From positions 822,001-886,000 of the forward strand of contig NC_019748.1 of NCBI RefSeq assembly GCF_000317575.1: a stretch of 64,000 bases of DNA, read 5' to 3'. A model generated the notes under the pieces. The model was given only the letters and a program-made list of their open reading frames with translations, did not search any database and was not told the origin of the DNA. Shown here one piece after another: positions 33,452 to 49,397 of the stretch. The position numbers and the translations under genes were made by a program. How positions within the stretch are numbered: position 1 is the stretch's first letter; each line of letters opens with the position of its first letter. The DNA comes from Stanieria cyanosphaera PCC 7437 (GTDB lineage: Bacteria > Cyanobacteriota > Cyanobacteriia > Cyanobacteriales > Xenococcaceae).

Positions 33452-33645
33452 ACTTTTCTCCGCAAGAAGTTCCTCAGATGTGCAGACAGAATGAATTGTG
33501 GGTAGAGTTTAAGAAATAGATACAAAAATTCTCATAGAATAATATTAAAATACTTTGAAGGCGTTCGATTGTCTCTAGTTGACTATTTAAATTGATTAAA
33601 TTGCTATTAATATTCGCTTGACTTAATACTACTCCTCTGATGTCC

Positions 33646-34875
33646 TTAAATTTTTTTACTATTGAAATATTCTACAAATAATCGATAAGGTCTTACTAAA
33701 GAATACAAAAACGCTAAAGATTTGGGTAGTTTTAAATAATTCCATTCTTTTGCAGTGGGGGTTGTTAACATAGTAAGAAAATAAACAAGTTGAGTTGAGA
33801 TATTACTTTTAAGACTACTAATAAAAATATATTTATTTAATTCTTCTGGGGGTCTTTCAAAAATAGATCTGTAAGACTGTTGAGCTAGCCACTGAACTCT
33901 TAAATTTTTTTCAAGCGAAGCTATAATAGATTTTGGAATATTAGCTTGTAGCAAATCATAAGCCAACCAAAGACCAAGCTCTAGTATTTTTTCACAATCA
34001 ATTTTTTGAGCTTGTGCTTCCACTTTTTGCCAATCAATCTCTGGATTATTATTAATTAATTCAGCGACATCGCACACCCATTTTAATTCAGACCAACAAT
34101 GTTTTGAGCCATGAAAGCATAAGTACAGCAGTAAATCTTCTAATGAAAATTGAGCGACTTTAGCTCCACCAAGAGAAGTTAACTGAGAATTATTTATTAA
34201 ATATTCGAGATCGAGTTTGAAGAAATCATTAAGTCTTTTTTCAGTAATAGACCATTGAAGGTCTATAGCAATTTGTTTTTGAGAGTGGATAAAATCATAT
34301 TTTCGTTGAATTTCTTTTGACTCTAAAAAATTTTTATATTGTAAATAAGGTTTCTGCTCTATTTCTGCAATGGGACTAGGTAGTTCATAACCTAAAGAAG
34401 TTAGAAGATTTATTATTTTTGGAACATCTCGTTCTCGAACTAATAAATCTAAATCGCAAAACTGTCTTAAAGTTAAATTTTTGTAGGCATAATTAGCGAG
34501 AGTAGGTCCTTTAAAAGGAATTGCTTGAATGTTATTATTTTTAAATATATCTAATATTTTTAGCAATTCCGCAGTCAAAAGTAAATTACGCCTAACATGA
34601 GCTTGAAAATACTGCTCTAAAGAAGAAAATATATTGCTAGGTATAGCTTGAGGACAAAGTTTATTGAGGTTATAAAATAATAAAGGTATTAAGCCGTGTC
34701 TTTCGCCTATTTCTAATAGCAATTCCCAATTTAAATCTTGATTGACTAAATTTTTTATTTTAACTTTAGTTTGTTCATCTACTTGACTGCGAGCGCAACA
34801 TAAAAGCAGTTCGATTTCTGGTTGATTTACTATTAAAGGTGAATTAATATCTTTTTTAGTTAAAGTTGTTGTCAT
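33646..34875 (-). CDS. PF14907 nucleotidyltransferase, lasso cluster (PadeN-like)
   Basis: A 409-residue member of the uncharacterised nucleotidyltransferase family PF14907: LLLTAELLKILDIFKNNNIQ, IPFKGPTLANYAYKNLTLRQ, and the acidic CDLDLLVRERDV motif expected to bind metal. This family accompanies kinase-type lasso peptide clusters such as that of paeninodin, where it is thought to modify the peptide further, though I know of no settled activity. Last gene of the minus-strand operon, 8 bases after the ABC exporter gene. Confidence 0.85.
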   Translation of the reverse strand: MTTTLTKKDINSPLIVNQPEIELLLCCARSQVDEQTKVKIKNLVNQDLNWELLLEIGERHGLIPLLFYNLNKLCPQAIPSNIFSSLEQYFQAHVRRNLLLTAELLKILDIFKNNNIQAIPFKGPTLANYAYKNLTLRQFCDLDLLVRERDVPKIINLLTSLGYELPSPIAEIEQKPYLQYKNFLESKEIQRKYDFIHSQKQIAIDLQWSITEKRLNDFFKLDLEYLINNSQLTSLGGAKVAQFSLEDLLLYLCFHGSKHCWSELKWVCDVAELINNNPEIDWQKVEAQAQKIDCEKILELGLWLAYDLLQANIPKSIIASLEKNLRVQWLAQQSYRSIFERPPEELNKYIFISSLKSNISTQLVYFLTMLTTPTAKEWNYLKLPKSLAFLYSLVRPYRLFVEYFNSKKI

Positions 34876-34883
34876 AATTTTGA

Positions 34884-36701
34884 TTAACGATAATTCTGTG
34901 CTTGAGTTTCAAATAAATAAGCGTATTTTCCTTGTTGTTTGATTAACTCGCTGTGAGTACCACTCTCGACAATTGAACCTTGCTCCATGACATAAATTCG
35001 ATCTGCCATTCGGACTGTAGATAGACGATGAGTAATTAGAATTGCAGCTTGGTCTTTAATTAATTCACGGAATCTACTAAATACTTCATATTCCGCTTTT
35101 GGATCCATTGCGCTAGTAGGTTCGTCTAAAACAATTACTTGAGAGTCTCTCAAAAATGCCCTAGCTAAAGCTACTTTTTGCCATTGACCGATACTTAATT
35201 CTTCTCCTTGAGCAAATAATTTGCCTAAAATAGTATCGTATTTTTGAGGTAGTCTTTGAATAACATCATCTGCGCCAGAACGACAAGCAGCAGACCTGAT
35301 TTGATGATCGCCTGGTAAAATATCAATATTACCAAGGCGAATATTTTCTGCTGCCGTAAAATGATATTTAGCATAATCTTGAAATATTACGCCGATTTGT
35401 TTACGCAGATCGGCTATTTTAAAATCGCGAAGATCGACACCATCGATTGTAATATTCCCTGATGTAGGATCGTATAACCGACATAATAATTTAATTAGGG
35501 TAGTTTTACCTGAACCATTTTCCCCTACTAAAGCGATCGTTTCTCCAGGTTTAATCGTGAGATTAATATTTTTTAATGCCTGACGTGCAGAATCAGTATA
35601 TTGAAAACTGACATTATCAAAAATAATGCCTTTTGTGATTGGTTGAGGCAGTAGTTTTGGATATTCAGGTTCAACAATTTTGGGTTTTAAATCTAAGAAT
35701 TCATACAAATTTGCTAGAAATAAGTTATCTTCATAAAGTCCTGACAGACTGGTTAACAGAGCTTTAAGATTCTGTTGACCTCTTTGCAGCGCTTGATAAT
35801 AAAGTACTAAATCTCCTAAAAGTAATATTCCCTGAATAGTTTGGTAAATAATAAAAGCAAAAACACCAAAAACAAAAATCCCAGCAGTAGCTTGAGCTAA
35901 AAAATAAGCAATTGAACGTTTAGTTGCGATACTCAATCTTTCTTGATAAAGTTTATTTCTAATCTTTAAATATTCTTTACTAAACCAAGAACCTAAGTCA
36001 AATAAACGAATTTCTTTAGCATATTGATCTGCTGTAATCATCCAACCTAAATACATTGATTGTCGCTCTAATTGAGTACGTCTGCGTTGCCAATAATACA
36101 TAACGCGAGAATATTTCATCCGCACTAAAACAGCAGGAATAGCAGCGACTAAAAGAATTCCAATAATTCCCCAGTGTAGAGAGAGTAATAATCCTATCAT
36201 TGCCACTAAAGAAATTCCATTCTGACCAGCTTCAGCTAAACGATTGAGAATCTGGGGCGGTCGATAAGGTGCTTCTTGCTGCGCTCTTTGTAGAGCATCG
36301 TGATACTTGGCGTTTTCATAGTATTCTAAATCTGCTTCAATTGATTTAGCATGGATAATTCCCTGCATATAATCAGTCACTTTCTGTGAATGAGCCGTAT
36401 TGACTAATTCGGTTAGAGACTGACACAAACTGATAATAATGGTGACTATGCCAGCGATAATTAACAACGGTAAAATTTGATCAAAAGCTGCGCTAGGATT
36501 AGCTGCTCGTAAATTGCTAGTTACTGTATCGATAATTAATTTAGCAAGATAAATGGCAGCTAAAGGTAATATACCTTGGATTGAGACTAAAATGATTCGT
36601 GCGATCGTCCAACCAGGGCTACTTTGCCAAACCAAACCTAGTGCAGGTATAAAGCGTGTAGCTTGTTTAATTTTACTTTTGATTATTTTTCCCGCTTTCA
36701 T
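34884..36701 (-). CDS. ABC exporter (fused permease-ATPase), lasso cluster protein D
   Basis: Membrane domain of about six helices in residues 1-330, then an ATPase domain with Walker A GENGSGKTTLI, signature ELSIGQWQKVALARA and Walker B VIVLDEPTSAMD. There is no N-terminal C39 peptidase, so it cannot substitute for the missing leader protease. In lasso clusters the D protein exports the mature peptide and gives self-immunity. 605 aa, 15 bases downstream of the beta-propeller gene. Confidence 0.93.
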   Translation of the reverse strand: MKAGKIIKSKIKQATRFIPALGLVWQSSPGWTIARIILVSIQGILPLAAIYLAKLIIDTVTSNLRAANPSAAFDQILPLLIIAGIVTIIISLCQSLTELVNTAHSQKVTDYMQGIIHAKSIEADLEYYENAKYHDALQRAQQEAPYRPPQILNRLAEAGQNGISLVAMIGLLLSLHWGIIGILLVAAIPAVLVRMKYSRVMYYWQRRRTQLERQSMYLGWMITADQYAKEIRLFDLGSWFSKEYLKIRNKLYQERLSIATKRSIAYFLAQATAGIFVFGVFAFIIYQTIQGILLLGDLVLYYQALQRGQQNLKALLTSLSGLYEDNLFLANLYEFLDLKPKIVEPEYPKLLPQPITKGIIFDNVSFQYTDSARQALKNINLTIKPGETIALVGENGSGKTTLIKLLCRLYDPTSGNITIDGVDLRDFKIADLRKQIGVIFQDYAKYHFTAAENIRLGNIDILPGDHQIRSAACRSGADDVIQRLPQKYDTILGKLFAQGEELSIGQWQKVALARAFLRDSQVIVLDEPTSAMDPKAEYEVFSRFRELIKDQAAILITHRLSTVRMADRIYVMEQGSIVESGTHSELIKQQGKYAYLFETQAQNYR

Positions 36702-36716
36702 TATTGATCACTTTGT

Positions 36717-37994
36717 TTAGGTAGGTGTGTAGCTTAAAATTTCTCCTGAATTATTAATCGGCTCGCCGTAATCTTGTCCTAAACCAAAATAAAATTTTCC
36801 ATTTAAATATTCAAAAGAACGAGCTTTGTTACTACTTTTAAAACTCAAGACTTTTTGCCATCCTCTTTTGTTACTAAGATTGCTAGTTTTATATATATAA
36901 ATTATAAAGCGATCGCAAAAGATTTTTCTATTAGCTAAAACATATAATTCGTTATTAATAACTAAAATATCTTCCCCTATAGCATGGTGAGGTAAATGGA
37001 CTACTTCAGGAGTTTTTCCCATACCTTTTTTTAGATACATTCCCAAAGAATTCATGTAATTTTCTTCGTATTTTTGCTTATTACTGCTATTAGAATAAGA
37101 ACGTACAGAATAAATTAAACTATGATTAAATTCTACTGGATGCCAAATTCGATAAATAGTTTCAAATCCATATTTACCCTTGTTTTCTTTGATCTGTTTT
37201 TGAGGTATAAACTCACTATTATCTAATTGGGGAGCTAAAATAAAACTTTTTTCTTGAAGTTCATATACAGCAATAGTACCTGGTGAGTTCCAAGCATCTT
37301 TTAACATCGAAGTAGGAGCATAAATTTTATTTTGATAGGAAAAAACTGAAAAAAACCAATTATAATCAGCTAAAACTACATTATTTATAGAGGGAGAATT
37401 ATTTACTCCTGCTCCTTGAAAAGAAGCACCATTATCTGTAGTAATTGCCGTTCCAGGAGCATCTTGATTTATATTATTAGGATTACGATTATTACCAACT
37501 AACAGTAAATCACCACTTTTAGTTTCGATTAAATCGCGAACGTGTGCTAACTTCACAGCATTAGAAGCATATTTAGTCCATTGTCCATCGCTTGCTTTAC
37601 AATAAAATTTATTGGCATCATTACCTCGCGGATCTGCTGCTGGTATATAAAGCTGATTATCAAACACTTTATAATGTTCGATCGCTTCTTCGTTAACTGT
37701 ATATTCTTTTATAAAACTTTGAGTTGCAGGATTATATGCCCAGACATTTATCGGTCCTGCATTATTAACAGTACTTCCACCAGCAATATATATTTTGCCG
37801 TCAAAAACTTGCAAATCCCAAACGTTAAGAGCGCGGTCTACCTTACCATCATTTAATGATGGATTTCCCAATCTAACTACGGCATGATGATTATAATGTT
37901 CTCGGCTTAAAGTTTCGCAGGTTAAAATTAGTATTGTGAGCGAAAACAGCAATACAGATAATAAGATTTTTTGTCTGTACTTCTGCCTTATCAT
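36717..37994 (-). CDS. secreted beta-propeller-like protein in the lasso operon
   Basis: An N-terminal signal segment (ILLSVLLFSLTILILTCETL) contains a Cys, but the -1 Thr is unusual for a lipobox. The mature part shows repeated blade-like strands: VFDGKIYIAGG, VFDNQLYIPAA, SYQNKIYAPTS, VINNELYVLAN and YLNGKFYFGLG, about 60-80 residues apart, suggesting a kelch-like propeller. It lies between the kinase and exporter genes with short gaps. It is not a known lasso gene; a role as peptide-binding, immunity or receptor protein is inference. No S9 peptidase domain is visible. Confidence 0.7.
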   Translation of the reverse strand: MIRQKYRQKILLSVLLFSLTILILTCETLSREHYNHHAVVRLGNPSLNDGKVDRALNVWDLQVFDGKIYIAGGSTVNNAGPINVWAYNPATQSFIKEYTVNEEAIEHYKVFDNQLYIPAADPRGNDANKFYCKASDGQWTKYASNAVKLAHVRDLIETKSGDLLLVGNNRNPNNINQDAPGTAITTDNGASFQGAGVNNSPSINNVVLADYNWFFSVFSYQNKIYAPTSMLKDAWNSPGTIAVYELQEKSFILAPQLDNSEFIPQKQIKENKGKYGFETIYRIWHPVEFNHSLIYSVRSYSNSSNKQKYEENYMNSLGMYLKKGMGKTPEVVHLPHHAIGEDILVINNELYVLANRKIFCDRFIIYIYKTSNLSNKRGWQKVLSFKSSNKARSFEYLNGKFYFGLGQDYGEPINNSGEILSYTPT

Positions 37995-38026
37995 TTACTT
38001 ATTTTTGTCCTTTAGAGCTAATATTA

Positions 38027-38962
38027 CTAACTAGCCATTGTTAAAAAAGGTTCTTGATTGAGATCTGCTTCTACTAAACGTGCTACTTCAGGAAGTAAAT
38101 CTAGCGATCGCGGTCTTTCTAAGCTGCAAATTTTTACTTTGTTGACGAGACTTGCGCTTTGGCAAAAATGTTGAGCAACATTATTAAGCTGAGAAAACTT
38201 ATCTCCTAAAGTCATAGCAATATAAGAATTACCGATTAACTCTTTGATTGCTTCTTGAGGATTTAACTGTTTAATACCCAGATTAGAACCTATCTGTAAA
38301 ATATAGATGCGGTGCAAGGATAAAGGTTTTGAGAAAAAACCGTCAAATGTAGGACGAGCGCGTTTTTCAACCAAAGGATGTATTTTGCTAAAGCTTTCAG
38401 GAGTATCTCCTAAAGCCGATTTAACAGAATCAGGCCATAATTTGATCTGAGGAAACCCAGGAAGTAAGATGGGATTGCCACTATTATCAAAAGAGACCGC
38501 AGCAACATCATCTACCATCATTTGATGTCCCCGTCCATATAAAGTGGCTGCCATTGTCGATTTGCCTTGTCCTTTGACACCCAAAAATAAACAAGCGCGA
38601 TCGCCAATTTTAACTCCGCTAGCATGAAGAATTAAGTAGTTACGTTGATGAAGAATCATTCCTAATAAAGGACCTAAAATAGGCTGACGGATTATATAGT
38701 CTTCTTCTAGGTTGGGGATAGGATCAACAACAATTTTTCTTCCCCCTTTGACTAAAAACTTACCGCCGTATTTCCAGTAAAAATAAGCTGATTCACCCTC
38801 TATGTGCCAATAACGAGGTGTTTCAGCGCATTGTGGCGGTTGCCAATCAATTGATTGGCAATCGATTGTAATTTCAGTTGGAGCAGTTTTGGAAATTGGT
38901 AATTCTGGTAAAGGCATTGCCGATTGAATACCCAAACCATATGCCATGTATTTATACATCAA
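38027..38962 (-). CDS. HPr-kinase-like lasso peptide kinase (PadeK-like)
   Basis: A 311-residue HprK-related protein. P-loop FLGVKGQGKSTMAATLYGRG and the metal-binding MVDDVAAVSF motif are present; YKYMAYGLGIQSAMPLPELP is the usual start of this family. Homologues in lasso clusters (paeninodin PadeK) phosphorylate the C-terminal Ser of the precursor. The precursor encoded 259 bases upstream ends in Ser, consistent with the same chemistry. Substrate assignment is inference from context. Confidence 0.87.
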   Translation of the reverse strand: MMYKYMAYGLGIQSAMPLPELPISKTAPTEITIDCQSIDWQPPQCAETPRYWHIEGESAYFYWKYGGKFLVKGGRKIVVDPIPNLEEDYIIRQPILGPLLGMILHQRNYLILHASGVKIGDRACLFLGVKGQGKSTMAATLYGRGHQMMVDDVAAVSFDNSGNPILLPGFPQIKLWPDSVKSALGDTPESFSKIHPLVEKRARPTFDGFFSKPLSLHRIYILQIGSNLGIKQLNPQEAIKELIGNSYIAMTLGDKFSQLNNVAQHFCQSASLVNKVKICSLERPRSLDLLPEVARLVEADLNQEPFLTMAS

Positions 38963-39026
38963 TACTTTTGATTATTTTGACTAGTAGTAAATTTAGATAT
39001 ATCTAAATATTTATTAAATAAGAACT

Positions 39027-39191
39027 ATACTTAGAAATACTAAGTATGGAGTTAACAGGGAGGGATAACTAGACTTTAGAAACCTAGTTATCTTGGCTAA
39101 AACACTAGCTGTCTTTTAGTCGCGATTTAACCCAAAGATACTAACGTTACTAAAAATATTTGTTTATATATTTTTGAGCCATCCCTGTTAA
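39027..39191 (-). promoter_or_regulatory. hairpin-rich region after the lasso precursor gene
   Basis: Contains three perfect inverted repeats: ATACTTAG/CTAAGTAT (39027-39047), GATAACTAG/CTAGTTATC (39064-39092) and a long-range TTAACAGGGA (39052-39061)/TCCCTGTTAA (39182-39191). None has a T-run typical of a terminator. Position between precursor and kinase genes suggests an RNA element that stabilises or limits read-through from the precursor message. A small mobile element is the alternative. Confidence 0.5.
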
Positions 39192-39221
39192 TTTACTAAC
39201 TTACTTGAGCTTAAAACTAAA

Positions 39222-39362
39222 CTAGGAAATAGTAAGTTCAGTCAGAGGAGTACCTGCTTCAAAACTAGCATCTAGCTTTGTTCCTACTTTAGTTTTTTGA
39301 GTTAAAGTTTCAACGTTACCGTGAACGGATAGTTGAGGTTGAGTGTATGCTTTTTTGCTCAT
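39222..39362 (-). CDS. lasso peptide precursor, 46 aa
   Basis: Too short for ordinary gene calling. The leader matches the RRE-recognised lasso motif exactly: Tyr6-x2-Pro9-x-Leu11-x3-Gly15-x5-Thr21, within YTQPQLSVHGNVETLTQ. If Thr21 is the -2 residue, the core starts at Lys23 (KTKVGTKLD...) with Asp31 at position 9 as ring-closing acid. Cleavage before Gly27 would instead put Glu35 at position 9. The chain ends TELTIS with a C-terminal Ser, the residue phosphorylated in paeninodin. The gene lies between the cyclase and kinase genes, with a 172-base leader region. Confidence 0.88.
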   Translation of the reverse strand: MSKKAYTQPQLSVHGNVETLTQKTKVGTKLDASFEAGTPLTELTIS

Positions 39363-39534
39363 GATTTTTTGCGTTTTTTAGTTAGTTGTGTTTAGTTTAC
39401 AGCTTGCTAATATTTACCTAAATCAATAACAGTATTTGGGTAATTACCAGGTTCGCTGTGCTGGAAGACAAAATACAGTAATTACATTGTCTTGTCTCCC
39501 AGGACAAAGAACTTGTTTGGTTAATGATTTTTCA

Positions 39535-41508
39535 TTAGCCTATTTGCTGTAAAGATTCTTTTTGCTCTATGGTTGAAAAATTACCATTGTTATCAGCCAC
39601 GAAATTAAGCCACAAACCCAAAGAAGTAGCTCTCCAAATGAACCGAATATCTTTAAGGTCGGGTTTAGATTTTTCCGATGAAACCTGATCATCATAGATA
39701 CTTTGTAAAATCTCAGTATTGATATAGTTACTTAAGATTTGATAATTGTGAAAAATTAGTTGCTTCAAAGTTCGTTTTTCTTGATTTAGCAAACCATAAA
39801 CTAGATTGGGTGTAAAATCCATTTTGCTAGTACGCCACTGAACTTCTGATGGCAAAATATTTTCCATAGCACGGCGCATTATTATACGACTCCAGCCTTG
39901 AGATAGTTTTTGTTCTGGAGGCAGGGAAAAACAAAACTCAACTAAGCGTTTATCCCAAAAGGGATAACGCAGTTCAAGGGAAAAAGCAGCAGCAGCCTTA
40001 TCAAATATTTCTAAACCAAAAGCATGAATCCCTTGAGTAAGAATTCGGTAATGTTCAGCTTGACAAGTTTGATTAGAACTATTTTCAATTTCTTCCAGTT
40101 TTTGCTCTCGCTGTTTTAGATCGATGCGCCTAACAAAATCTAGATTAAAACTACTATAAATCGACTGTGGCAAATCTTTCTGGATACTGAATGTTTTTCT
40201 TAATTTCCCCTTAATTTTTCGCCAAAGTTTTATTGGCTTACTTCGACTCAGAGTGTAGGTATAAAAGTAATTCCAAAATCCTTGCCAGGCTGATTCATTG
40301 TATACTTTGGCTACTCCTCGAATCTCTTGCCATAATCTTAACCAATATCCCTCCTTAGCTAATTCGTGCAAATATCCAGAACCGTGGCATACTGTGCTAT
40401 CTCCATCGTAACCGTCAAGAATTATATTTACTCCCTTATCGCGAGCTAGTTCGCAAATCCCCCAAGTCATCATGGCAAATCCAGGGGCAAAAAAAGCTTC
40501 GTCTTCATGTTCAAAAATTTTATTGATATCAGTCAAAGGGGTGCGAAGATCTGCATTGAGATAATGAGGTTGATAATTACCTTTTTTTAAAACTGTATTA
40601 ATGTACTGGCGTTCGTCACATTCCTTAATGCGATCAAAAATAGCTGAAAAAGTAGGTAGTTGTTGTTCTTCTGGTAATAATTTTCTCGCTACGCAAGTAA
40701 TTGAAGAAGAATCGAGTCCTCCACTGAGCATCGAACCGACATTTGAGCAACTGCGAAGACGACATCTTACTGCTTCGGTAAATATCTCTAAAAACTTAGC
40801 AGCATATTCTTCATTTGAATCAAAACGAGTCTCTTTAGTAACATCGAGACTCCAATAAGAATTTATATTGATTCCTTCAGAAGTAACAGTCATAAAACTG
40901 GCAGGAGGAAGTCTAAATATATTTTGATATGAAGTTATGGCGAGATCGTCAAAATTACCGATTAAATAATCTCCGATCCTTTCTTCATTAATTACCTGTG
41001 GTATTTCTGATAAACAAAAAATTGCTTTAATTTCACTAGCAAATACAAAAATAGAATCTGAGGAATGGTAATACAGTGGTTTTATGCCAAAATGATCTCT
41101 AGCACAGAAAAGTTGCTGTTTTTGTTTATCCCAGATGGCAAAAGCAAAATCACCAATCAATTTTTCTGGACATTGTTCACCCCAGGTTTGATAAGCAGCT
41201 AAAATAAGACCGCTATCGGTAATTTTTTCTTTCGGTAAATGATTTAATTCTAAAGCTGAAATTAGTTCATCTCGATTATCAATGCGAGCATCGGCAGTAA
41301 TTACTAAATTATTTTTTTCTAGAGGCAAACTTTCCAATAAAGATTCTGGAGTAGTCCAAAGCATCCGATGAATAAAACCGACATTATCTTCAGACCAAAT
41401 ATTTGCTCCATCTGAGCCTCGGTGTGCCAGTATGTCAAGCATTTTTGTTAAATGGTTTCGCTCTACTGGCTTTTTATCTATATAAAAGATACCCGCGATC
41501 GCGCTCAT
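39535..41508 (-). CDS. lasso cyclase (asparagine synthetase-like, protein C)
   Basis: Has the glutamine-hydrolase-like N-domain but starts MSAIAGIFYIDKK, lacking the catalytic Cys2 of true AsnB, as lasso cyclases do. The synthetase domain has the ATP pyrophosphatase motif GSMLSGGLDSSSITCVARK and the C-terminal LRYPFWDKRLVEFC. It should adenylate the ring Asp/Glu side chain of the core and close the macrolactam. 657 aa. It follows the B1 gene and precedes the precursor gene. Confidence 0.92.
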   Translation of the reverse strand: MSAIAGIFYIDKKPVERNHLTKMLDILAHRGSDGANIWSEDNVGFIHRMLWTTPESLLESLPLEKNNLVITADARIDNRDELISALELNHLPKEKITDSGLILAAYQTWGEQCPEKLIGDFAFAIWDKQKQQLFCARDHFGIKPLYYHSSDSIFVFASEIKAIFCLSEIPQVINEERIGDYLIGNFDDLAITSYQNIFRLPPASFMTVTSEGININSYWSLDVTKETRFDSNEEYAAKFLEIFTEAVRCRLRSCSNVGSMLSGGLDSSSITCVARKLLPEEQQLPTFSAIFDRIKECDERQYINTVLKKGNYQPHYLNADLRTPLTDINKIFEHEDEAFFAPGFAMMTWGICELARDKGVNIILDGYDGDSTVCHGSGYLHELAKEGYWLRLWQEIRGVAKVYNESAWQGFWNYFYTYTLSRSKPIKLWRKIKGKLRKTFSIQKDLPQSIYSSFNLDFVRRIDLKQREQKLEEIENSSNQTCQAEHYRILTQGIHAFGLEIFDKAAAAFSLELRYPFWDKRLVEFCFSLPPEQKLSQGWSRIIMRRAMENILPSEVQWRTSKMDFTPNLVYGLLNQEKRTLKQLIFHNYQILSNYINTEILQSIYDDQVSSEKSKPDLKDIRFIWRATSLGLWLNFVADNNGNFSTIEQKESLQQIG

Positions 41509-41588
41509 AGTAAAATATATCTATAGCTTGACTTAAAATTTATCGATAATAATCTTGGAATAATTTAAGTAGAAATAGCTGTTTTTTC

Positions 41589-41870
41589 CTATTTAGCTAT
41601 CTCGATGATTCCTGCTTCAAGCATTTCCTGTAATAGATTTTTGACATCAATAGCTCCTTGCTCTGGAGTTACGTCATATTCTGCTAAAACTAAGTCGATA
41701 ATTTCTGACTCGGTTTTAGGTTCTTGTAACCATTGCCAAATTTGATTACCAGTTTCATTCAAACCAAAATATACTCCTGATTTGAGGTCTAAAATTACGG
41801 CTTCAGAGCCTACCTCTGAATGGAGTTGCTCGGAAGAAACTTGATAACTCACTAAAACTTGTTGCAGCAT
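41589..41870 (-). CDS. PqqD-like RRE protein, lasso protein B1
   Basis: A 93-residue winged-helix RiPP recognition element: LHSEVGSEAVILDLKSGVYF, LNETGNQIWQWLQEPKTESE, IDLVLAEYDV. In lasso systems B1 binds the leader Tyr-Pro-Leu region and hands the precursor to the B2 protease. No B2 (transglutaminase-like, ~140 aa) is encoded before, after or fused to it here. First gene of the operon. It is not part of a PQQ cluster, as no pqqB/C/E genes are present. Confidence 0.9.
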   Translation of the reverse strand: MLQQVLVSYQVSSEQLHSEVGSEAVILDLKSGVYFGLNETGNQIWQWLQEPKTESEIIDLVLAEYDVTPEQGAIDVKNLLQEMLEAGIIEIAK

Positions 41871-41915
41871 ATTTTTTGTTCTTTAAATTATCGAATGAGT
41901 ATATTAATTTAGGTA

Positions 41916-41940
41916 AACTCTATTTTTTTTTCGTAGAGTT
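41916..41940 (-). promoter_or_regulatory. hairpin in the leader of the lasso operon
   Basis: AACTCTA/TAGAGTT (7 bp) with an 11-nt A-rich loop (minus strand), 46 bases upstream of the B1 start. It lies in the 253-base gap that must carry the operon promoter; the rest of that gap shows nothing clear. Confidence 0.35.
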
Positions 41941-42123
41941 AAATTTAGAACTTACAGTAACTGAAGATATTTCTTGCAAACAATTTACTTTGTAAGGATA
42001 ATAGCAGTTGCATCTATAGTTTTAAAGTAGTAAAAAAGTTATTGGAAAGTAACTTTGAGAGTTTAAGCGAGTATTGCTTAGCTAATTTATGATTATTTTT
42101 GTCTAAAATATTGTTTATATAGA

Positions 42124-43278
42124 TTAAGTATCGATCGTTTTGATAGCTCGATCAAAGCTATTTAAAATTGTTTCTAAAGAAAAGTTAGTTTTGGCACTAA
42201 TATAACCATGGTGTGCTATCTTATCAGCAAAAGCAGAATCGTCAATTAATTTTTGAATTTGCTGTTGGAGAGCAATCTGATCTCCAAGAGGAAATAACAA
42301 ACCTGTTTTGCCATCTTCGATTAACTCTAATGCTCCTCCCGCAGCCGAAGCAATGACTGGTTTTTGCGCCAATTGTCCTTCGACGATTACTCTGCCAAAT
42401 GGTTCTGGTTCGGTGGAAGTATGAGCTATAATATCGCAAGCTTTCATTAAGGTTGGAATGTCATCACGAAAACCTAACCAATGAACTCTTTCTTTCAGTT
42501 CTGGTTCGTTGGCTAGAGTCTTGAGATAAGAAACATATTCTTCTTCACCAAATAAAGCATCTCCTACTAAGATAACGTGGACTTGAGGTAGTTGTTTAAT
42601 CGCAAGTAACAGAATATGTTGTCCTTTCCAGTAAGAAAGCCGGCTAAATAATCCCACTAAAATTTTATTGCCGATTGCTAAAGAATCTCGTATTTGCTGA
42701 ATTGCTTGTGTTGATACGCAATCGAAGGATGCTGAATCAAAGCCATTATATACAACGCTGACTAGACTTGCTTTACCTCCAGCAGCGATAAAAGCTTTAC
42801 CTGTAGCTTGAGAATTAACTAATACTTTAGTAGCAAATTGATTAGCTAAAGTTACAGCAATACGACGATTGAGTCGACTAAAATGTTTGGCAGTAATAAT
42901 ATCTCTTAAATGCCAAACTACAGGAGGACTACCTTGTAGAGTTGCTAGTGCAGCAACAATAAAGGCTTTTTGGGAGTTGGCATGAATTAAATCAAATCCT
43001 TTTGCTTCAGTTGCTACTTGTCGAGCTATTCGCCATAATTCTGGTATTGTCTTTAGAGCCTTTAGTCCTCCCGAAGTACGAAGTCCGAGAATTTGTTGGG
43101 AAGCTTCAACAAGTTTAACTGTGACACCTAAATTTTCAAGACGGGGACGCAAAATTCCATCGGTAAATAATAATACTTGGCTTGAGCGACGGTAGGCAAA
43201 GGCTAAATCAATTAAACTTAGTTCGGCACCTCCTAAAGTAGCAGTATGGTCGACAAAAAGAATTTTGGGTTGTTTCAT
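42124..43278 (-). CDS. glycosyltransferase family 4
   Basis: GT-B fold with the family-1/4 signatures: N-terminal FVDHTATLGGAELSLIDLAF, acceptor-domain HANSQKAFIVAALATLQ, and the nucleotide-sugar site TSTEPEPFGRVIVEGQLAQK. 384 aa. It starts within the last codons of the STAND gene (ATGA overlap), so the two are translationally coupled. It could act on the surface polysaccharide of the neighbouring locus; a role in lasso glycosylation cannot be excluded but is not supported. Confidence 0.9.
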   Translation of the reverse strand: MKQPKILFVDHTATLGGAELSLIDLAFAYRRSSQVLLFTDGILRPRLENLGVTVKLVEASQQILGLRTSGGLKALKTIPELWRIARQVATEAKGFDLIHANSQKAFIVAALATLQGSPPVVWHLRDIITAKHFSRLNRRIAVTLANQFATKVLVNSQATGKAFIAAGGKASLVSVVYNGFDSASFDCVSTQAIQQIRDSLAIGNKILVGLFSRLSYWKGQHILLLAIKQLPQVHVILVGDALFGEEEYVSYLKTLANEPELKERVHWLGFRDDIPTLMKACDIIAHTSTEPEPFGRVIVEGQLAQKPVIASAAGGALELIEDGKTGLLFPLGDQIALQQQIQKLIDDSAFADKIAHHGYISAKTNFSLETILNSFDRAIKTIDT

Positions 43279-44633
43279 TCTTGAATAATTATTTCGATTA
43301 GTTTTTTTTGCATATAATTTTTCATTAAAGGTTGCAAAATATAATTATTATCTTTTTTATAAATCAATCCTCGCTCTCTAAGAAAATCAAAGCTTTCGTG
43401 TAACTTAGATTTAGGTCTAAAATGAGAAAATTGTCGCTCTAATAGCTCATTTTTAGTGTAACCACTATTAATGGCAAGCCAATACAACATTTCTTTTTCT
43501 AATTTTGATAAATTGTTTAATTCTTGTTCTAGAATTTTAGTAACTTCTTTTAAGAGTGATATTTCTTGAAGAATACAATTAAAGTCTTCTTCTAAAATAT
43601 TGTTGATATTGCTAACAAAAATATTGATAATTTGCGGATTATACTGACAATATTTGATTAAGCTGTGCCACTGTAATTCAGTTAAATTATTGTTTTTTAA
43701 TCGATTTCGATAAACCAACTCAAGGCTAGATTGATTTAAACCTTGCAAATGCATAAAAAAAACTCGTTCATTGTCGTAGTATTCAAAGATTTTAGGCTTG
43801 ATACTACTTGTAAAAATTGATAAACTTTGATGATGAGTTGCAACTAGACAACGAAGTAACTGAGCGTACTCTTCAGAATTTTGACGATAAAAAATAGTTG
43901 TAGAATCGCTTTCAAGAATTGAGTCAAGATCATCGATAATTAAAAGACAACGATAAGTCCGCAGATGTTCGACAAATTTTGTCAATAGACTGTTAATATG
44001 CTCATAATCATCCACTAAACTTTGATCTACTGAAGAGGCAAAAATTTGTAGATAGCTTTTTAACAATTCTTTGACAGAAAGAGATTCAGTTAGAGAAAAC
44101 CAAATTACATAGTCAAATTGCTCGCTTATTTGCTTACCAAACTTGATAGCCAAAGCAGTTTTACCACAACCAACCATTCCTGAAATGATAACGGCACGAC
44201 AACAAGGTTCTTGACTCCAATTATGTAATTGAGTTAGCTCCATTTGCCTACCTTGGAAATTTGTGATCTCAGGGGCAGTAGTCCAATGAATATACTCTTG
44301 CTTGCTGTTACTTGTTATAGTTGTTTCTCGTTTTTGATATTTATCAAGACTGCTATTTAGAGAGTTAATTTGACTTCTCATAAAAGGAACAAAATTGCTT
44401 TTATTAATCTGTGTTCCAAAAGATTTTGATAGCAGTTTCCAGAGTTCACAACCTTTTGTTTTGATATACTCGGTATCATAGTTATAGATATTAGCAATCT
44501 CAGAGTACGTTTTTCCTTCCCAAACTTGTTTAAGAATGATTTCTTGTATTTTATTTAAGTAAGAAGGACGAATCACTTCATCGATTATAAAAATAATACT
44601 TTCAAAACTATAAGAATTATTTATCATGCTCAA
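43275..44633 (-). CDS. STAND regulator: vMAP-type HTH plus NB-ARC
   Basis: The N-terminus (YLNKIQEIILKQVWEGKTYS, EIANIYNYDTEYIKTKGCEL) is the HTH found at the front of many cyanobacterial NB-ARC/WD40 proteins. The ATPase core has Walker A GMVGCGKTALAIKFG and kinase-2 CLLIIDDLDSIL, then a winged-helix region (LSKLEKEMLYWLAINSGYTK). Unlike most relatives it ends without WD40 repeats (452 aa). It overlaps the glycosyltransferase gene by 4 bases and is divergent from the polysaccharide array. Control of surface-glycan genes is inference. Confidence 0.85.
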   Translation of the reverse strand: MSMINNSYSFESIIFIIDEVIRPSYLNKIQEIILKQVWEGKTYSEIANIYNYDTEYIKTKGCELWKLLSKSFGTQINKSNFVPFMRSQINSLNSSLDKYQKRETTITSNSKQEYIHWTTAPEITNFQGRQMELTQLHNWSQEPCCRAVIISGMVGCGKTALAIKFGKQISEQFDYVIWFSLTESLSVKELLKSYLQIFASSVDQSLVDDYEHINSLLTKFVEHLRTYRCLLIIDDLDSILESDSTTIFYRQNSEEYAQLLRCLVATHHQSLSIFTSSIKPKIFEYYDNERVFFMHLQGLNQSSLELVYRNRLKNNNLTELQWHSLIKYCQYNPQIINIFVSNINNILEEDFNCILQEISLLKEVTKILEQELNNLSKLEKEMLYWLAINSGYTKNELLERQFSHFRPKSKLHESFDFLRERGLIYKKDNNYILQPLMKNYMQKKLIEIIIQE

Positions 44634-45066
44634 TCTTAATTGCCAAGTTTTTAAATTTGATTAAAAAAATATTGATAGCTAAAAGTAATAAAAGTTACAA
44701 AAAATAAATCCAAGTGCTACTCATATAGAAACGAGTATTTTTCTAGCTTATACGTACGTATTACAAAGTCATAGAAAATAATACACTAAAAAATCTTGAA
44801 GTTAGATGAATTATTTCAAATAATTTCAGATTTTAGGTCACTTTATAATTTCTTTTGAGTTACTAGATCAACCTGTTACTTGTTAGTCTCAAGTACATAT
44901 AATTATCGCAACACAACATACCAAAGTTTTGTTTTCTTGACTTGAGCGATCAAGCCAAAAGAAAACACGAGATTAAAACTAGCATTTAGTTGAAATTTTT
45001 AAACTAAGCATTGTTTAAGAATTGTCAAAAAACTATCAATGCGCCAAGGTCATATAGTAATAAATT
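44634..45066. other. divergent promoter region of the polysaccharide locus
   Basis: 433 bases, no gene. It has a perfect 12-bp palindrome ATACGTACGTAT (44750-44761) and an ACTC...GAGT inverted repeat just before it, candidate binding sites for a dimeric regulator. Both flanking operons start outward from here. Confidence 0.5.
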
Positions 45067-46218
45067 ATGAGAATAGCCCTGGTACATGACTATTTAACTC
45101 AAAAAGGAGGAGCAGAAAGAGTTTTTGCTCTACTATGTAAATTTTTCCATAGCGCGGATATTTATACTTCACTCTACGATTCAGTTAACACCATCGATTT
45201 AACGAACCGCTTGCCTCATACGACATTTTTACAAAAGCTTCCGGGTACGAAAAGGAATTTTCGTCTGTTTGCCCCGTTGTATTATCCCGCTTTTAGACTT
45301 TTAGACCTTCGTGAATACGATCTAATTATCAGCAGTACGTCTAGTTTTGCTAAAGCAGTAAAAACTAAACCTGGTGCAATGCATATATGTTTTTGTCATA
45401 ATGTAACTCGTTTTTTGTGGAATACTCGCACTTATTTGGAAGAATATAACAGTTTTAGAAAATATTCTTTATTAATCAAACCAATATTAGGATTGATGCG
45501 CCAAGCAGATTTTATCTATGCTCAAGAGCCAGATTTGTATATAGCCAATTCTTCGACTGTTGCTTGCCGTATCGAAAAAATTTATCGTCGGAAGTCTTTA
45601 GTAATTAATTATCCTATTGACACCAATAAATTTATATTTTCAGACCAAAAAGAAGATTTTTATTTGATTTCTTCCCGTATGATTAGTTATAAGCGTTTAG
45701 ATATCGCGATCGAAGCTTTTAACTGGTTAGGGCTACCCTTAGTAATTATTGGTGATGGTCCAGAGCGCAAACGTTTAGAAGAAAAAGCATTAAGTAATAT
45801 CAAATTTTTAGGATATGTAGACGATCAATGGCGTACTCATTTAATGGCAAAAGCCAAAGCTGTTGTGATTACGGCATTAGAAGATTATGGATTAGTTCCA
45901 ATTGAAGCTAATGCTAGCGGTACTCCAGTAATTGGCTATGGAGCGGGAGGAATTCTTGATACTCAAATTTCAGGAAAAACGGGAATTTTATTCAAACATC
46001 AATCACCAGAAGCTTTGCAATCAGCTTTATTACTCTCAGAAAAGCAAAAATGGAATTATCGCCAAATTCGCGCTCATGCAGTCAACAATTTTTCGGAAGC
46101 AGTATTTTTCGCTCAAGTCCAAAAAACTCTGGAAGAATTTTGTGGTAAATCGATGGTGGACAATTTAGCTCTTAACAGAGATTTAATCACAAAAAATGTT
46201 TTAGTGGAGGCGAATTAG
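45067..46218 (+). CDS. glycosyltransferase family 4
   Basis: A 383-residue GT-B enzyme: MRIALVHDYLTQKGGAERVF at the N-terminus, FCHNVTRFLWNTRTYLEEY as in WbaZ-type mannosyl/rhamnosyl transferases, and TALEDYGLVPIEANASGTPV at the nucleotide-sugar site. First gene of the plus-strand polysaccharide operon; its stop directly abuts the Wzc-like start codon. The sugar is unknown. Confidence 0.92.
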   Translation: MRIALVHDYLTQKGGAERVFALLCKFFHSADIYTSLYDSVNTIDLTNRLPHTTFLQKLPGTKRNFRLFAPLYYPAFRLLDLREYDLIISSTSSFAKAVKTKPGAMHICFCHNVTRFLWNTRTYLEEYNSFRKYSLLIKPILGLMRQADFIYAQEPDLYIANSSTVACRIEKIYRRKSLVINYPIDTNKFIFSDQKEDFYLISSRMISYKRLDIAIEAFNWLGLPLVIIGDGPERKRLEEKALSNIKFLGYVDDQWRTHLMAKAKAVVITALEDYGLVPIEANASGTPVIGYGAGGILDTQISGKTGILFKHQSPEALQSALLLSEKQKWNYRQIRAHAVNNFSEAVFFAQVQKTLEEFCGKSMVDNLALNRDLITKNVLVEAN

Positions 46219-48453
46219 ATGAAGCAGATTGAATGGGAAGAAAATAGCAGTGATTTAGGCTATGGGCAGCTTTTAGGAATTTTATGGCGCAGGCGTTTTT
46301 GGATAGGAGGCGTGTTTTTGGGAGTTTTGGCAGTAGCAATTCCTTTGGCTTTGATGAAACAACCCCTCTACATGAGTCAGATGCAACTTTTAATCGAGTC
46401 TAATTATCAGACTAAAGATAGTACAAGAGGTAACGATAATAATCAATATTTAGAGGAAGAATTTGCCGATTCGAGTATCGAGATCGATTATCCAACTCAA
46501 CTGAAGTTGATGCGTAGCTCTTATTTATTAAAAAAAGTAGTTAAAAAATTAGGTGTTGAAGGTTCGGATGCTGAAATTGCTGAAATTGTTGAACAATTAA
46601 AAAGCTCTCTTAGTGTCTACCAGGTTATCGATGAAAGTGAGGATAACAAAGGAACTGAAACAAAAATTATAGAAGTAGCCTACGTTAGCCAAGATTATAA
46701 CGATAGCAAAAAAATATTAGAAGCAATTGAGCAAGTTTACATCGAATACAACGTCGAGCAACAAGAAAAGCGTCTGCGTGATGGATTGGCTTTTATTGCC
46801 AAACAAATTCCCGCAGCCCAACAAGAGGTAGCTGCGATCGAAGCTAAACTAACTCAACTGCGGTCAGAAAACAATTTAGTTTCACCCCAAGGAGAATCTG
46901 AGTCGATTAAAGCAGTTTTGAATAATATTCAACAGGAAAGAGCGACTCTCAAAGCAGAACAAAAGCAAACTCAAGGAAATTATCGTCAATTACAACAGGA
47001 ATTAGGTTTATCAGCCGAAAATTCAGTCGCTATGACTCGCCTCAACCAATCATCCCAATATCAAAGTTTACTCAATAAGTTACAGCAAATTGAGATTGAA
47101 TTGGCAGACAAACAGGCACGTTTTACAGATGATAATCCCGTAGTTAAAGATTTATTAGCACAAAAAAATACTCAAACAACATTATTACTACAAGAAGTAA
47201 AAAAAATTTTAGGAGCAGTGCCACCTAACTTTGCAGTGCAATTACAATCTTTATTGAGACAAGGAGAATTAGTCAACAGCAAAACCAATTTTATCGAAAC
47301 AATTACTCAGTCGCAAGCTGACTTAAAGGGACTTGAAGAGCGAGATAGAAGCTTAGCTCAAACTGAATCAGAGCTTAGAGAAAAATTAACTCAATTTCCC
47401 GCTCTCATTGCTCGCTATGATAGTTTAACTCAGGAAGCAAATCTCAAAAAAAATGCTTTACAAAGACTACTAGCAGCCAAACAAGAACTAGAAATCGCAC
47501 TGAGTCGAGGGGCTTACAATTGGCAAGTTATTGAATCGCCTCAACTGGGTGTACAAATTGCTCCCAATACTACTAAGGATATTTTGCTTAGTTTAGTAGT
47601 AGCTTCTTTTCTGGGAGGAACTACGGCTTTTATTAAAGAGTCTTTAGACGAGCAACTTTATAATTCCCGACAAATTCAAGAAAAAATTGCTTTACCACTA
47701 TTAGGTAGTACTCCTGGATTACCTTTAGCTAAGCATGATCAATTTGTCGTAAAACTGCCTTTTCTGTCCCCTAAAGAGTCTTCTGTACAAGAAATTATCA
47801 ACTGGCAACCTTTTCGTGAGTCTTTAGATTTGATTTATGAAAACTTGCAAAGACTTGGCTCTGGTTTTGCCTTTAAATCTTTATTACTAACTAGTGCCGT
47901 AGCAGGAGAAGGTAAATCGACTTTAGTTTTGGGATTGGCTTTCAGTATTGCCCGTCATCAAAAGCGTGTTTTGGTTATTGATGCTGACTTACGTTGTCCA
48001 AGTTTGCATGAAAAATTAGGAGTGGAAAATAATTCTGGCTTGAGCGATTTATTACAGGGAACTACTGCTAGTCTTAATATTCAACAAGTTACCTTGGCGG
48101 GAGAAAATATCGATCTAGTAACCTGTGGTTCTAGAATTACAGACCCTGTTAAATTTCTTAGTTCTCCTAAATTTAAACAGTCAATCGATCAGTTACAAGC
48201 TAATTATGACTTGATCTTAATCGATACGCCTCCAGTCCTGGGAATGGTCGATGCGATTAAAATCTCTGGTTATTGTGGGGGAACGATGATAGTAAGTCGT
48301 CTCAATCAAGTTAAAGCAACCGAATTAATTGAGGCTACCAATTTACTTTGTAATTCTAATTCTAAAGTACTGGGAATAGTTGTCAATAATTCTCAAGATG
48401 TAACCATGCGATATCAAAAGCAACCTCAATATTTATTAAGCCAACCAATTTGA
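46219..48453 (+). CDS. Wzc-like polysaccharide co-polymerase and BY-kinase
   Basis: An N-terminal Wzz domain with a first membrane helix (WIGGVFLGVLAVAIPLALM), a long coiled coil (about 190-430), a second helix near 455 and a C-terminal bacterial tyrosine kinase: Walker A AVAGEGKSTLVLGLA, A' VLVIDADLRCP and B LILIDTPPVLGMVD. The tail has only two Tyr (MRYQKQPQYLLSQPI) rather than a long Tyr cluster. It controls polymer length and export. 744 aa. Confidence 0.93.
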   Translation: MKQIEWEENSSDLGYGQLLGILWRRRFWIGGVFLGVLAVAIPLALMKQPLYMSQMQLLIESNYQTKDSTRGNDNNQYLEEEFADSSIEIDYPTQLKLMRSSYLLKKVVKKLGVEGSDAEIAEIVEQLKSSLSVYQVIDESEDNKGTETKIIEVAYVSQDYNDSKKILEAIEQVYIEYNVEQQEKRLRDGLAFIAKQIPAAQQEVAAIEAKLTQLRSENNLVSPQGESESIKAVLNNIQQERATLKAEQKQTQGNYRQLQQELGLSAENSVAMTRLNQSSQYQSLLNKLQQIEIELADKQARFTDDNPVVKDLLAQKNTQTTLLLQEVKKILGAVPPNFAVQLQSLLRQGELVNSKTNFIETITQSQADLKGLEERDRSLAQTESELREKLTQFPALIARYDSLTQEANLKKNALQRLLAAKQELEIALSRGAYNWQVIESPQLGVQIAPNTTKDILLSLVVASFLGGTTAFIKESLDEQLYNSRQIQEKIALPLLGSTPGLPLAKHDQFVVKLPFLSPKESSVQEIINWQPFRESLDLIYENLQRLGSGFAFKSLLLTSAVAGEGKSTLVLGLAFSIARHQKRVLVIDADLRCPSLHEKLGVENNSGLSDLLQGTTASLNIQQVTLAGENIDLVTCGSRITDPVKFLSSPKFKQSIDQLQANYDLILIDTPPVLGMVDAIKISGYCGGTMIVSRLNQVKATELIEATNLLCNSNSKVLGIVVNNSQDVTMRYQKQPQYLLSQPI

Positions 48454-48463
48454 TTACTTATTC

Positions 48464-49393
48464 ATGACTGCAAATATCTTACTTACTACCTCCAAAGTCT
48501 TAACTTTAGACCTCGACAATCCCCAAACCGAGAAATTTATACCTGCCTGTCGTCTAAAATGGCGCAAGAAAATTCTCTGGGTAACTAAAGTTTCAGACGA
48601 TTTTAAGCCAATTCCTGCTTTAACACGTCAGCAATGGCTACAAGACTGTCTGAATAATTCTTGGGTAAAAACGGTTTGTCTGGACTATAGTTTGGAAGAG
48701 AAAGCAATCCGAGTATGGGCAGATACTTGTCGAAAAGCTAAGAAAAAGGTGTTTTTACGTATTAATTCTAGTTATCAAATTCTAAATCGCTACACCCAAG
48801 TTTGTTGGCAGATTAAAAGAATTTTTGATTGGGTTAGTGCTGCTATATTACTGTTGTTGCTAAGTCCACTAATGTTAGCGATCGCATTCTTAGTGAAGCT
48901 TTCTAGTCCTGGAAAGATTTTATTTCGTCAATGGCGCGTGGGCAAAAGAGGTCAACTATTCCAAATTTATAAATTTCGCACTATGAAGGTAGATGCCGAA
49001 CAGCAACATCATCAGGTTATGGGCGATCTCGATGGCTTACACAAGTTAGAAAAAGACCCTAGAATTACTCCTCTTGGTAAGTGGTTGCGTAAATATAGTC
49101 TCGATGAGTTACCTCAGCTATTTAACGTATTACGGGGAGAAATGAGTTTAGTTGGTCCTCGTCCTTGGGCTTTGTATGACGCGCTTCGGCTAAGAGAAGC
49201 AGACAAGAAAAGATTGAATGCTTTGCCTGGAATTACTGGTGCTTGGCAAGTCAAGTCTCGTTCTCAATTGTTGGATTTGAATGCCGTCACTAAATGCGAT
49301 CTTGAATATTTACATAGTTGGTCGTTAATTGGAGACCTCAAAATCTTAATGCTGACAATTCCTAAAGTTATTTCTGGTTTTGGTGCTTATTAA
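48464..49393 (+). CDS. priming sugar-phosphate transferase
   Basis: Transfers the first sugar-1-phosphate to undecaprenyl phosphate. The C-terminal catalytic domain has VGKRGQLFQIYKFRTMKVDA, RKYSLDELPQLFNVLRGEMS and LVGPRPW. One membrane helix (VSAAILLLLLSPLMLAIAFL) precedes it. The ~115-residue N-terminal region is soluble, replacing the four-helix region of WbaP. It follows the Wzc-like gene by 10 bases. Confidence 0.93.
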   Translation: MTANILLTTSKVLTLDLDNPQTEKFIPACRLKWRKKILWVTKVSDDFKPIPALTRQQWLQDCLNNSWVKTVCLDYSLEEKAIRVWADTCRKAKKKVFLRINSSYQILNRYTQVCWQIKRIFDWVSAAILLLLLSPLMLAIAFLVKLSSPGKILFRQWRVGKRGQLFQIYKFRTMKVDAEQQHHQVMGDLDGLHKLEKDPRITPLGKWLRKYSLDELPQLFNVLRGEMSLVGPRPWALYDALRLREADKKRLNALPGITGAWQVKSRSQLLDLNAVTKCDLEYLHSWSLIGDLKILMLTIPKVISGFGAY

Positions 49394-49397
49394 TACT

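Follow-up and report, generated by a model that had tools for sequence, protein, structure and literature searches.

Lasso peptide clusters of the paeninodin (pade) and pseudomycoidin (psm) kind are the closest described counterparts of the locus presented here. In firmicutes such clusters are organised C, A, K, B1, B2, D; PadeB1 binds the precursor leader with nanomolar affinity, and the leader peptidase PadeB2 needs PadeB1 (PMC5067487). The kinase PadeK adds a phosphate to the precursor's C-terminal Ser, PsmN has been linked to hexose addition, and the tailoring HprK-like kinase has H-K-D-D residues (PMC9266682). Our locus lies in the window, by which we mean the whole stretch of 64,000 nucleotides of Stanieria cyanosphaera PCC 7437 that was analysed (contig NC_019748.1, positions 822,001 to 886,000). 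It is a lasso cluster, here called cluster 1, that encodes the precursor A, the macrolactam synthetase (cyclase) C and the leader-binding protein B1, with no B2 in cis. Cluster 1 is probably a working paeninodin-like pathway that would draw its leader peptidase, B2x, in trans from a second lasso cluster (cluster 2) of the same genome.

Seven genes make up cluster 1 (positions 33646-41870, Table 1): B1, which is a recognition element (RRE) of ribosomally synthesized and post-translationally modified peptides (RiPPs), C, A, an HprK-like kinase, a kelch-like protein, an ABC exporter and a nucleotidyltransferase. An earlier note, made on this DNA from its letters alone, had described seven intact genes on one strand, and all are indeed open, on the minus strand and where they had been placed. 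B1, C (which also matches PF00733, 184 bits), the exporter and the nucleotidyltransferase score above curated cut-offs, while the kinase and kelch assignments are weak. The kinase falls below its family cut-offs (PF07475, 21.6 bits against 33.3; TIGR04352, 38.5 against 200), and the H, the Lys of GxGKS and the Asp-Asp are discernible in its translation by eye only. The label 'paeninodin-type' given by the note fits except for the missing cis B2. The precursor ends in Ser and both a nucleotidyltransferase and an ABC exporter are present; C, the precursor and B1 are in the cluster and B2 is elsewhere in the genome.

The absence of B2 from the cluster, also claimed earlier, was borne out. A B2 profile built in this analysis and grown to 40 members, B2x included, was run unfiltered over six-frame stop-to-stop open reading frames (ORFs) of at least 25 aa and gave no match at E <= 10 in the window from 20 to 56 kb. 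The 253-bp stretch between B1 and the flanking glycosyltransferase gene holds no credible B2 remnant, its best protein match having E 0.35, and none was seen by eye in a three-frame translation of the 80-bp gap between B1 and C. On these searches a B2 concealed in the cluster or by a frameshift was rejected. A B2 within the exporter was likewise rejected, there being no B2 domain among its Pfam matches and, as the note had said, no C39 peptidase domain. The genome (5,544,990 bases in 6 contigs) is estimated to be 100% complete, which makes it unlikely that the absence stems from assembly error or gaps.

The whole-genome PF13471 search that the note had proposed found a single B2, inside cluster 2, and NF033537 at E <= 10 also gave one match; two PqqD/B1 proteins were matched in the genome, one of them window B1. 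The B2, which we call B2x, has 161 aa and is encoded at C1:1107429-1107914 (L002:9430-9915), ~244 kb from window B1, its match being placed at C1:1107447. Its scores on the two models are low (42.5 and 40.8 bits; NF033537 40.8-40.9 bits against a cut-off of 33) and lie above both curated B2 cut-offs, and it retains Cys105 and His135, which are invariant in 7/7 aligned B2s. Cluster 2 comprises B1', B2x, C', a weakly matched methyltransferase, A', an HprK-like protein, a PRMT-like methyltransferase and an ABC exporter. The two B1 proteins, window B1 and B1', are 28% identical. The putative leaders of the cluster 2 type read YSPMKI in the window's genome (G000) and YSAIKI in G232, and have no YxxP proline. 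G232 holds the only other cluster-2-type cyclase (56% identical) in 388 genomes; its B2 differs, being 34% identical to B2x over 102 residues and sitting upstream of the G232 B1.

Relatives of B2x occupy the site of cluster 1 in two other genomes, as came out of the synteny comparison that had been suggested. In Pleurocapsa sp. CCALA 161 (G016) and Hyellaceae CSU_1_1 (G017) the place of the window's 253-bp gap, with the same glycosyltransferase on one side and B1 on the other, is taken by a B2. The neighbours up to 51245 (glycosyltransferase, NB-ARC ATPase and polysaccharide-type genes) keep, among the matches listed, the same order in G016 and G020, and in G017 by way of G016. B2x is 65% (G016) and 68% (G017) identical to these B2s over 161 residues and at most 34% identical to four other B2s compared. 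The three form a 100/100 clade in which the inner branching order has little support (88/34), and Asp147 is invariant in all three. (The B2 and B1 trees left out 4/40 B2 pieces below 120 aa and 1/40 B1 pieces below 90 aa.) G016 and G017, estimated to be 99% and 95% complete, have one PF13471 match each, the B2 at this site, so B2x is the only B2 found there for the cluster at the site; cluster-2-type cyclases are missing from both at E <= 1e-80. Window B1 is 47% and 52% identical to the B1 of G016 and G017, respectively. B2x is a rare B2. A search of 386 genomes across the phylum at E <= 1e-12 matched G000 alone, and a scan with two N-terminal peptide patterns, which distant relatives could escape, returned only the two known relatives.

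Nor is the lack of a cis B2 unique to the window cluster. In a survey of 388 genomes of the order, draft contigs included, cyclases were taken as NF033535 matches at E <= 1e-100 with at most two candidates scored per genome, a rule that misses further cyclases, among them the second one of the window's genome; B2 matches were counted at E <= 1e-3 and called near when within 12 kb on one contig. The survey yielded 73 cyclase loci in 61 genomes, 61 loci with a B2 within 12 kb and 12 (in nine genomes) without. A B2 occurs elsewhere in 8/9 genomes having a B2-less cyclase locus, against an extra B2 in 11/52 complete-cluster genomes (Fisher p 1.9e-4, only indicative because the genomes are related, G099, G115 and G131 being of one family). 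It also occurs in 46/327 genomes without a scored cyclase, in one of them (G353) below the curated cut-off. The sole exception among the nine, G037, was not accepted as a lasso genome free of B2: both of its 'C' matches have full Asn synthase and GATase domains, the scored match is under the NF033535 cut-off and no B1 was found at the locus; it is retained in the count of nine. B2-less loci with both B1 and C are found in seven genomes (G000, G025, G041, G051, G099, G115 and G232), all seven with a B2 elsewhere; the G025 cyclase lies ~220 bp from a contig end, and its B2 has possibly been cut off. On the cyclase tree, the 13 B2-less rows (two of them G037) need eight changes, all forced by starred branches, so the B2-less state arose repeatedly, and the label is somewhat clustered (4/500 shuffles as low). 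This tree is a short search without bootstrap; it left out 1/50 pieces (below 590 aa) and kept a longer piece of the same frameshifted G017 gene.

Some gene arrangements met in the survey may be recorded here. The lasso genes of G051 (L029, L030 and L031) lie on three contigs, one with B1 and C, one with C, an exporter and nucleotidyltransferases, and one with B1-B2-kinase. Lone B2 genes, with no B1 or cyclase found within ~19-20 kb, are present at L034 (G099) and L036 (G115), and both genomes own B1 and C clusters without B2.

Precursor A looks like a conserved lasso precursor. It scores just under the NF033528 cut-off (E 1.2e-7, 31.6 bits against 33), and is 33-53% identical to nine precursors of other lasso loci in an alignment (window row entered without its first Met), the five closest, in L053, L054 and three in L058, being 47-53% identical. 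Leader Lys, Tyr, Pro, Leu, Gly and Thr are invariant in the alignment. The predicted core is KTKVGTKLDASFEAGTPLTELTIS, and the pattern [LT]D..F...TP...[LV]T[FI]S is common to the window precursor and the five closest ones, which speaks against decay. The acceptor Asp or Glu of a lasso ring is expected at core positions 7-9, and the Asp at predicted core position 9 is nearly invariant. An RRE-binding YxxPxL and a Thr at leader position -2 are lasso precursor features (PMC10368454, PMC13381572), this Thr being a recognition element (PMC10368454); the leader of A has YTQPQL and ...LTQ. The C-terminus reads ...ELTIS, with Ser last. Core residue 1 is Lys if the leader stops at LTQ, and Gly in all five closest precursors.

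We infer the following pathway. Window B1 would bind the leader of A and present it to the distantly encoded B2x, which would cleave after ...LTQ. C would close the ring, probably from residue 1 to Asp9, a ring starting at Thr2 being an alternative; the kinase and the nucleotidyltransferase may then modify the Ser at the C-terminus, and the product would leave through the exporter. With cleavage after LTQ the calculated masses are 2488.34 Da for the macrolactam and 2568.31 Da with a phosphate added, and with cleavage one residue further on 2360.25 and 2440.21 Da; the predicted cluster-2 peptide comes to 3467.51 Da ahead of methylation or other modification. The different leader motifs and the low identity of the two B1 proteins suggest two leader-specific adaptors feeding one shared protease, with YxxPxL (window) and the putative YS[PA][MI]KI (cluster 2 type) recognised by separate B1s that would dock on the same B2. 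A cluster could shed its protease once another B2 is present in the genome. The broader claim, that cyanobacteria repeatedly run split lasso pathways in which pathway-specific B1s share a B2, the protease having been shed and an overprinted B2 later recaptured in cis, is one that we favour only slightly.

The gene for B2x probably arose in a B1-B2 pair of the cluster 2 type, its N-terminus being read out of frame from the B1 tail. The two genes share 98 nt in cluster 2, a stretch that ends B1' and, in another frame, begins B2x. Read in the B1' frame, the stretch matches a B1 model built without it (E 1e-6) and beats 500/500 shuffles against each of three other B1 proteins, which marks it as genuine B1 sequence. 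In the other frame its DNA is homologous to the B2x N-terminus in G016 (62/89 bases identical, score 49 against a shuffle maximum of 35) and G017 (62/79 bases, 58 against 27). The 60 bases upstream of the overlap score 36 with G017 (shuffle mean 13, maximum 27) and 30 with G016 (mean 13, maximum 30), and since part of this match falls in the last codons of the neighbouring glycosyltransferase in G016/G017, microhomology is possible; farther upstream there is no similarity signal to either genome. The later capture of B2x in cis, upstream of the B1 at this site, probably took place in the lineage of G016 and G017. Two further traces were sought and discarded. Downstream of B2x in G016 and G017, a protein search for remains of the cluster-2 cyclase was empty and DNA matches did not rise above chance, and upstream of B1 in cluster 2 there is no credible B2 remnant.

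Several observations weigh against a B2 shared in trans or against this history of it. The B2x gene overlaps B1', the B1 that resembles window B1 so little, and with no YxxP proline in the cluster-2-type leaders one B2 would have to accept two B1-leader pairs. In the trees, window B1 falls with G020, a genome with a canonical cis B2, on weak support (88/71); window C groups with G072/G346/G240 (canonical B1-B2-C) and not with the C of G016/G017. As these groupings disagree, the B1-C-A-K module at the site is mosaic, and the B2 that the window lost could have been canonical or B2x. Fossils of the alternative frame in G016 and G017 are marginal against the G232 B1 (7 and 13/500 shuffles as good), give little or no signal against the G023 B1 (25 and 362/500) and none against window B1 (70 and 424/500), and are not among the best 12 matches for the B1 model. 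In the B2 tree, finally, long branches may have met, and the order within the trio has little support. The mosaic B1 and C trees, together with the 98-nt dual-coding overlap, also weaken the opposite course of events, in which B2x was excised from the window site and then moved into cluster 2; the overlap makes a cluster-2-type pair the likelier source.

The earlier note had left three options, B2 in trans, another protease or decay, and the single B2 found genome-wide favours the first. That cluster 1 is an early relic, which lost B2 recently, makes no mature peptide and retains genes that have not yet decayed, seems to us improbable. It would account for the B2 missing in cis. In the sister species G011, PF13471 matches nothing and NF033535 yields no cyclase at E <= 1e-100, so the genus can dispense with such clusters, by loss or by never having had them; a search of G011 for cluster-2-type cyclases at E <= 1e-80 was likewise empty. 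Against a relic stand the seven open ORFs and the 46-aa precursor with a conserved core, and simple decay would not predict eight changes on the cyclase tree together with a B2 elsewhere in 8/9 genomes. The note had held that a second complete lasso cluster could show this one to be a relic. Such a cluster does exist, but given seven open ORFs, a conserved core and relatives of B2x at the same site elsewhere, it does not show that cluster 1 is a relic.

Slightly less probable again is removal of the leader without any B2, by another cellular protease or by a cyclase that uses core released through general proteolysis. Pseudomycoidin, to go by the title of Zyubko 2019, is reportedly made in vivo without both the leader and the leader peptidase. 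A Bacillota RiPP family related to lasso peptides has a signal-peptidase-like enzyme (PMC13381572), a further precedent, whereas PadeB2 activity depends on PadeB1 (PMC5067487) and the window has retained its B1. Pfam showed no protease in the seven proteins of cluster 1, to which the search for proteases other than B2 was confined, and such a route would leave unexplained both the association of B2-less loci with a B2 in trans and the presence of B2x at the syntenic site. We regard it as very unlikely that B2x serves cluster 2 only and that cluster 1 has a protease of its own, a B2 so divergent that the models missed it. B2x is itself weak on both models, so a still more divergent B2 is conceivable, but the unfiltered search of the locus used a profile that included B2x and found nothing, and NF033537 at its permissive threshold had one match in the genome. 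B2x in trans thus remains the reading that we prefer.

Table 1. Features of cluster 1 and its upstream flank (window coordinates)
Feature	Coordinates	Strand	Basis
PF14907 nucleotidyltransferase, PsmN-like, 409 aa	33646..34875	-	PF14907 223.6 bits, cut-off 31.2
ABC exporter, 605 aa	34884..36701	-	ABC_tran 125 bits
Kelch-like / beta-propeller-like accessory protein, 425 aa	36717..37994	-	weak Kelch matches
HprK-like kinase, 311 aa	38027..38962	-	sub-threshold PF07475, TIGR04352
Lasso precursor A, 46 aa	39222..39362	-	NF033528 (lasso_cyano), alignment with 9 precursors
Lasso macrolactam synthetase C (AsnB-like), 657 aa	39535..41508	-	NF033535 965 bits, cut-off 525
B1 (RRE, PqqD-like), 93 aa	41589..41870	-	PF05402 74.6 bits, cut-off 23.4
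Gap between glycosyltransferase and B1, 253 bp	41871..42123	.	B2x position at syntenic site in G016, G017
Flanking glycosyltransferase, conserved-site marker	42124..43278	-	PF00534; 69% identical to L014:5409-6569, adjoining B2x
Flanking NB-ARC/NACHT ATPase, conserved-site marker	43275..44633	-	PF00931 48.9 bits; syntenic in L014, L018

Among the remaining genes of cluster 1, the exporter is 79.5% identical to that of the G017 cluster, where the relative of the nucleotidyltransferase is split across two frames. Relatives of the kelch-like protein were found, among the loci searched, only in the lasso loci L021, L016 and L027, which makes it a possible accessory or immunity factor of lasso clusters. 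By eye, the protein starts with what resembles a signal or lipoprotein sequence. On its B1 side the cluster adjoins a polysaccharide-type locus (42124-51245) with two glycosyltransferases, a Wzz/ParA-like protein, a bacterial sugar transferase and an ABC transporter; paeninodins of Bacilli likewise co-localise with capsule loci (PMC13381572). On the other side, the similarity of the window from 20 to 60 kb to a 19.9-kb stretch of G011 stops at window position 33457, just before the cluster. The flanking gene near that position is one that we take to be ferredoxin-NADP-reductase-like. Cluster 2 lies within a ~9.6-kb stretch that is missing from G011, where the flanks meet with ~90 bases between them. 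A transposase-like gene, presumably of the IS605 OrfB type, stands at the edge of this island (L002:1044-2237), and the PRMT-like methyltransferase of cluster 2 (L002:4178-5296) has a PRMT_C domain and a C-terminal tail that resembles, by eye, a PqqD/RRE domain.

To genome miners, B2-less lasso clusters appear incomplete. Should one B2 be able to serve several clusters in trans, those lacking it may still function, and the specificity of a pathway would lie with B1 and not with B2. A 2026 study of Bacillota RREs describes the opposite pressure, pathways evolving discrimination between precursors and leader peptidases (PMC13381572). With two B1s and one B2, this natural genome allows a direct test of how modular B1 and B2 are, and is a ready source of adaptors and a protease for engineering. 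Among the titles and abstract beginnings that literature searches listed, up to 20 for each, none concerned a lasso cluster served by the B2 of another cluster. The component families are known; what these searches did not find in print is a single B2 serving two lasso clusters, the recurrence of trans B2 in cyanobacteria, and a B2 overprinted on a B1 tail.

Like the paeninodin and pseudomycoidin clusters, cluster 1 pairs a precursor with a C-terminal Ser with a kinase, putatively HprK-like, and like psm it has a nucleotidyltransferase (PMC9266682). Those clusters own their PadeB2 and PsmB2 (PMC10368454), whereas in this genome the B2 lies 244 kb from cluster 1, inside the second lasso cluster, and cluster 1 has an added kelch-like protein. 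Cluster 1 shares its cyclase clade and precursor core with canonical cyanobacterial lasso clusters (NF033535/NF033528; e.g. G072 and G240), but in these B1, B2 and C follow in overlapping frames, and in the window B1 is followed directly by C. The B2x-B1-C clusters of G016 and G017 share the site, the flanks and a related B1 with it, and their B2 is the closest relative found of B2x; they differ in having B2x in cis and a C of another cyclase clade. RiPP maturation proteases encoded apart from their cluster are also known for lanthipeptides (PMC8960859). That case concerns another RiPP class and other proteases, whereas here a dedicated lasso B2 lies inside a second lasso cluster.

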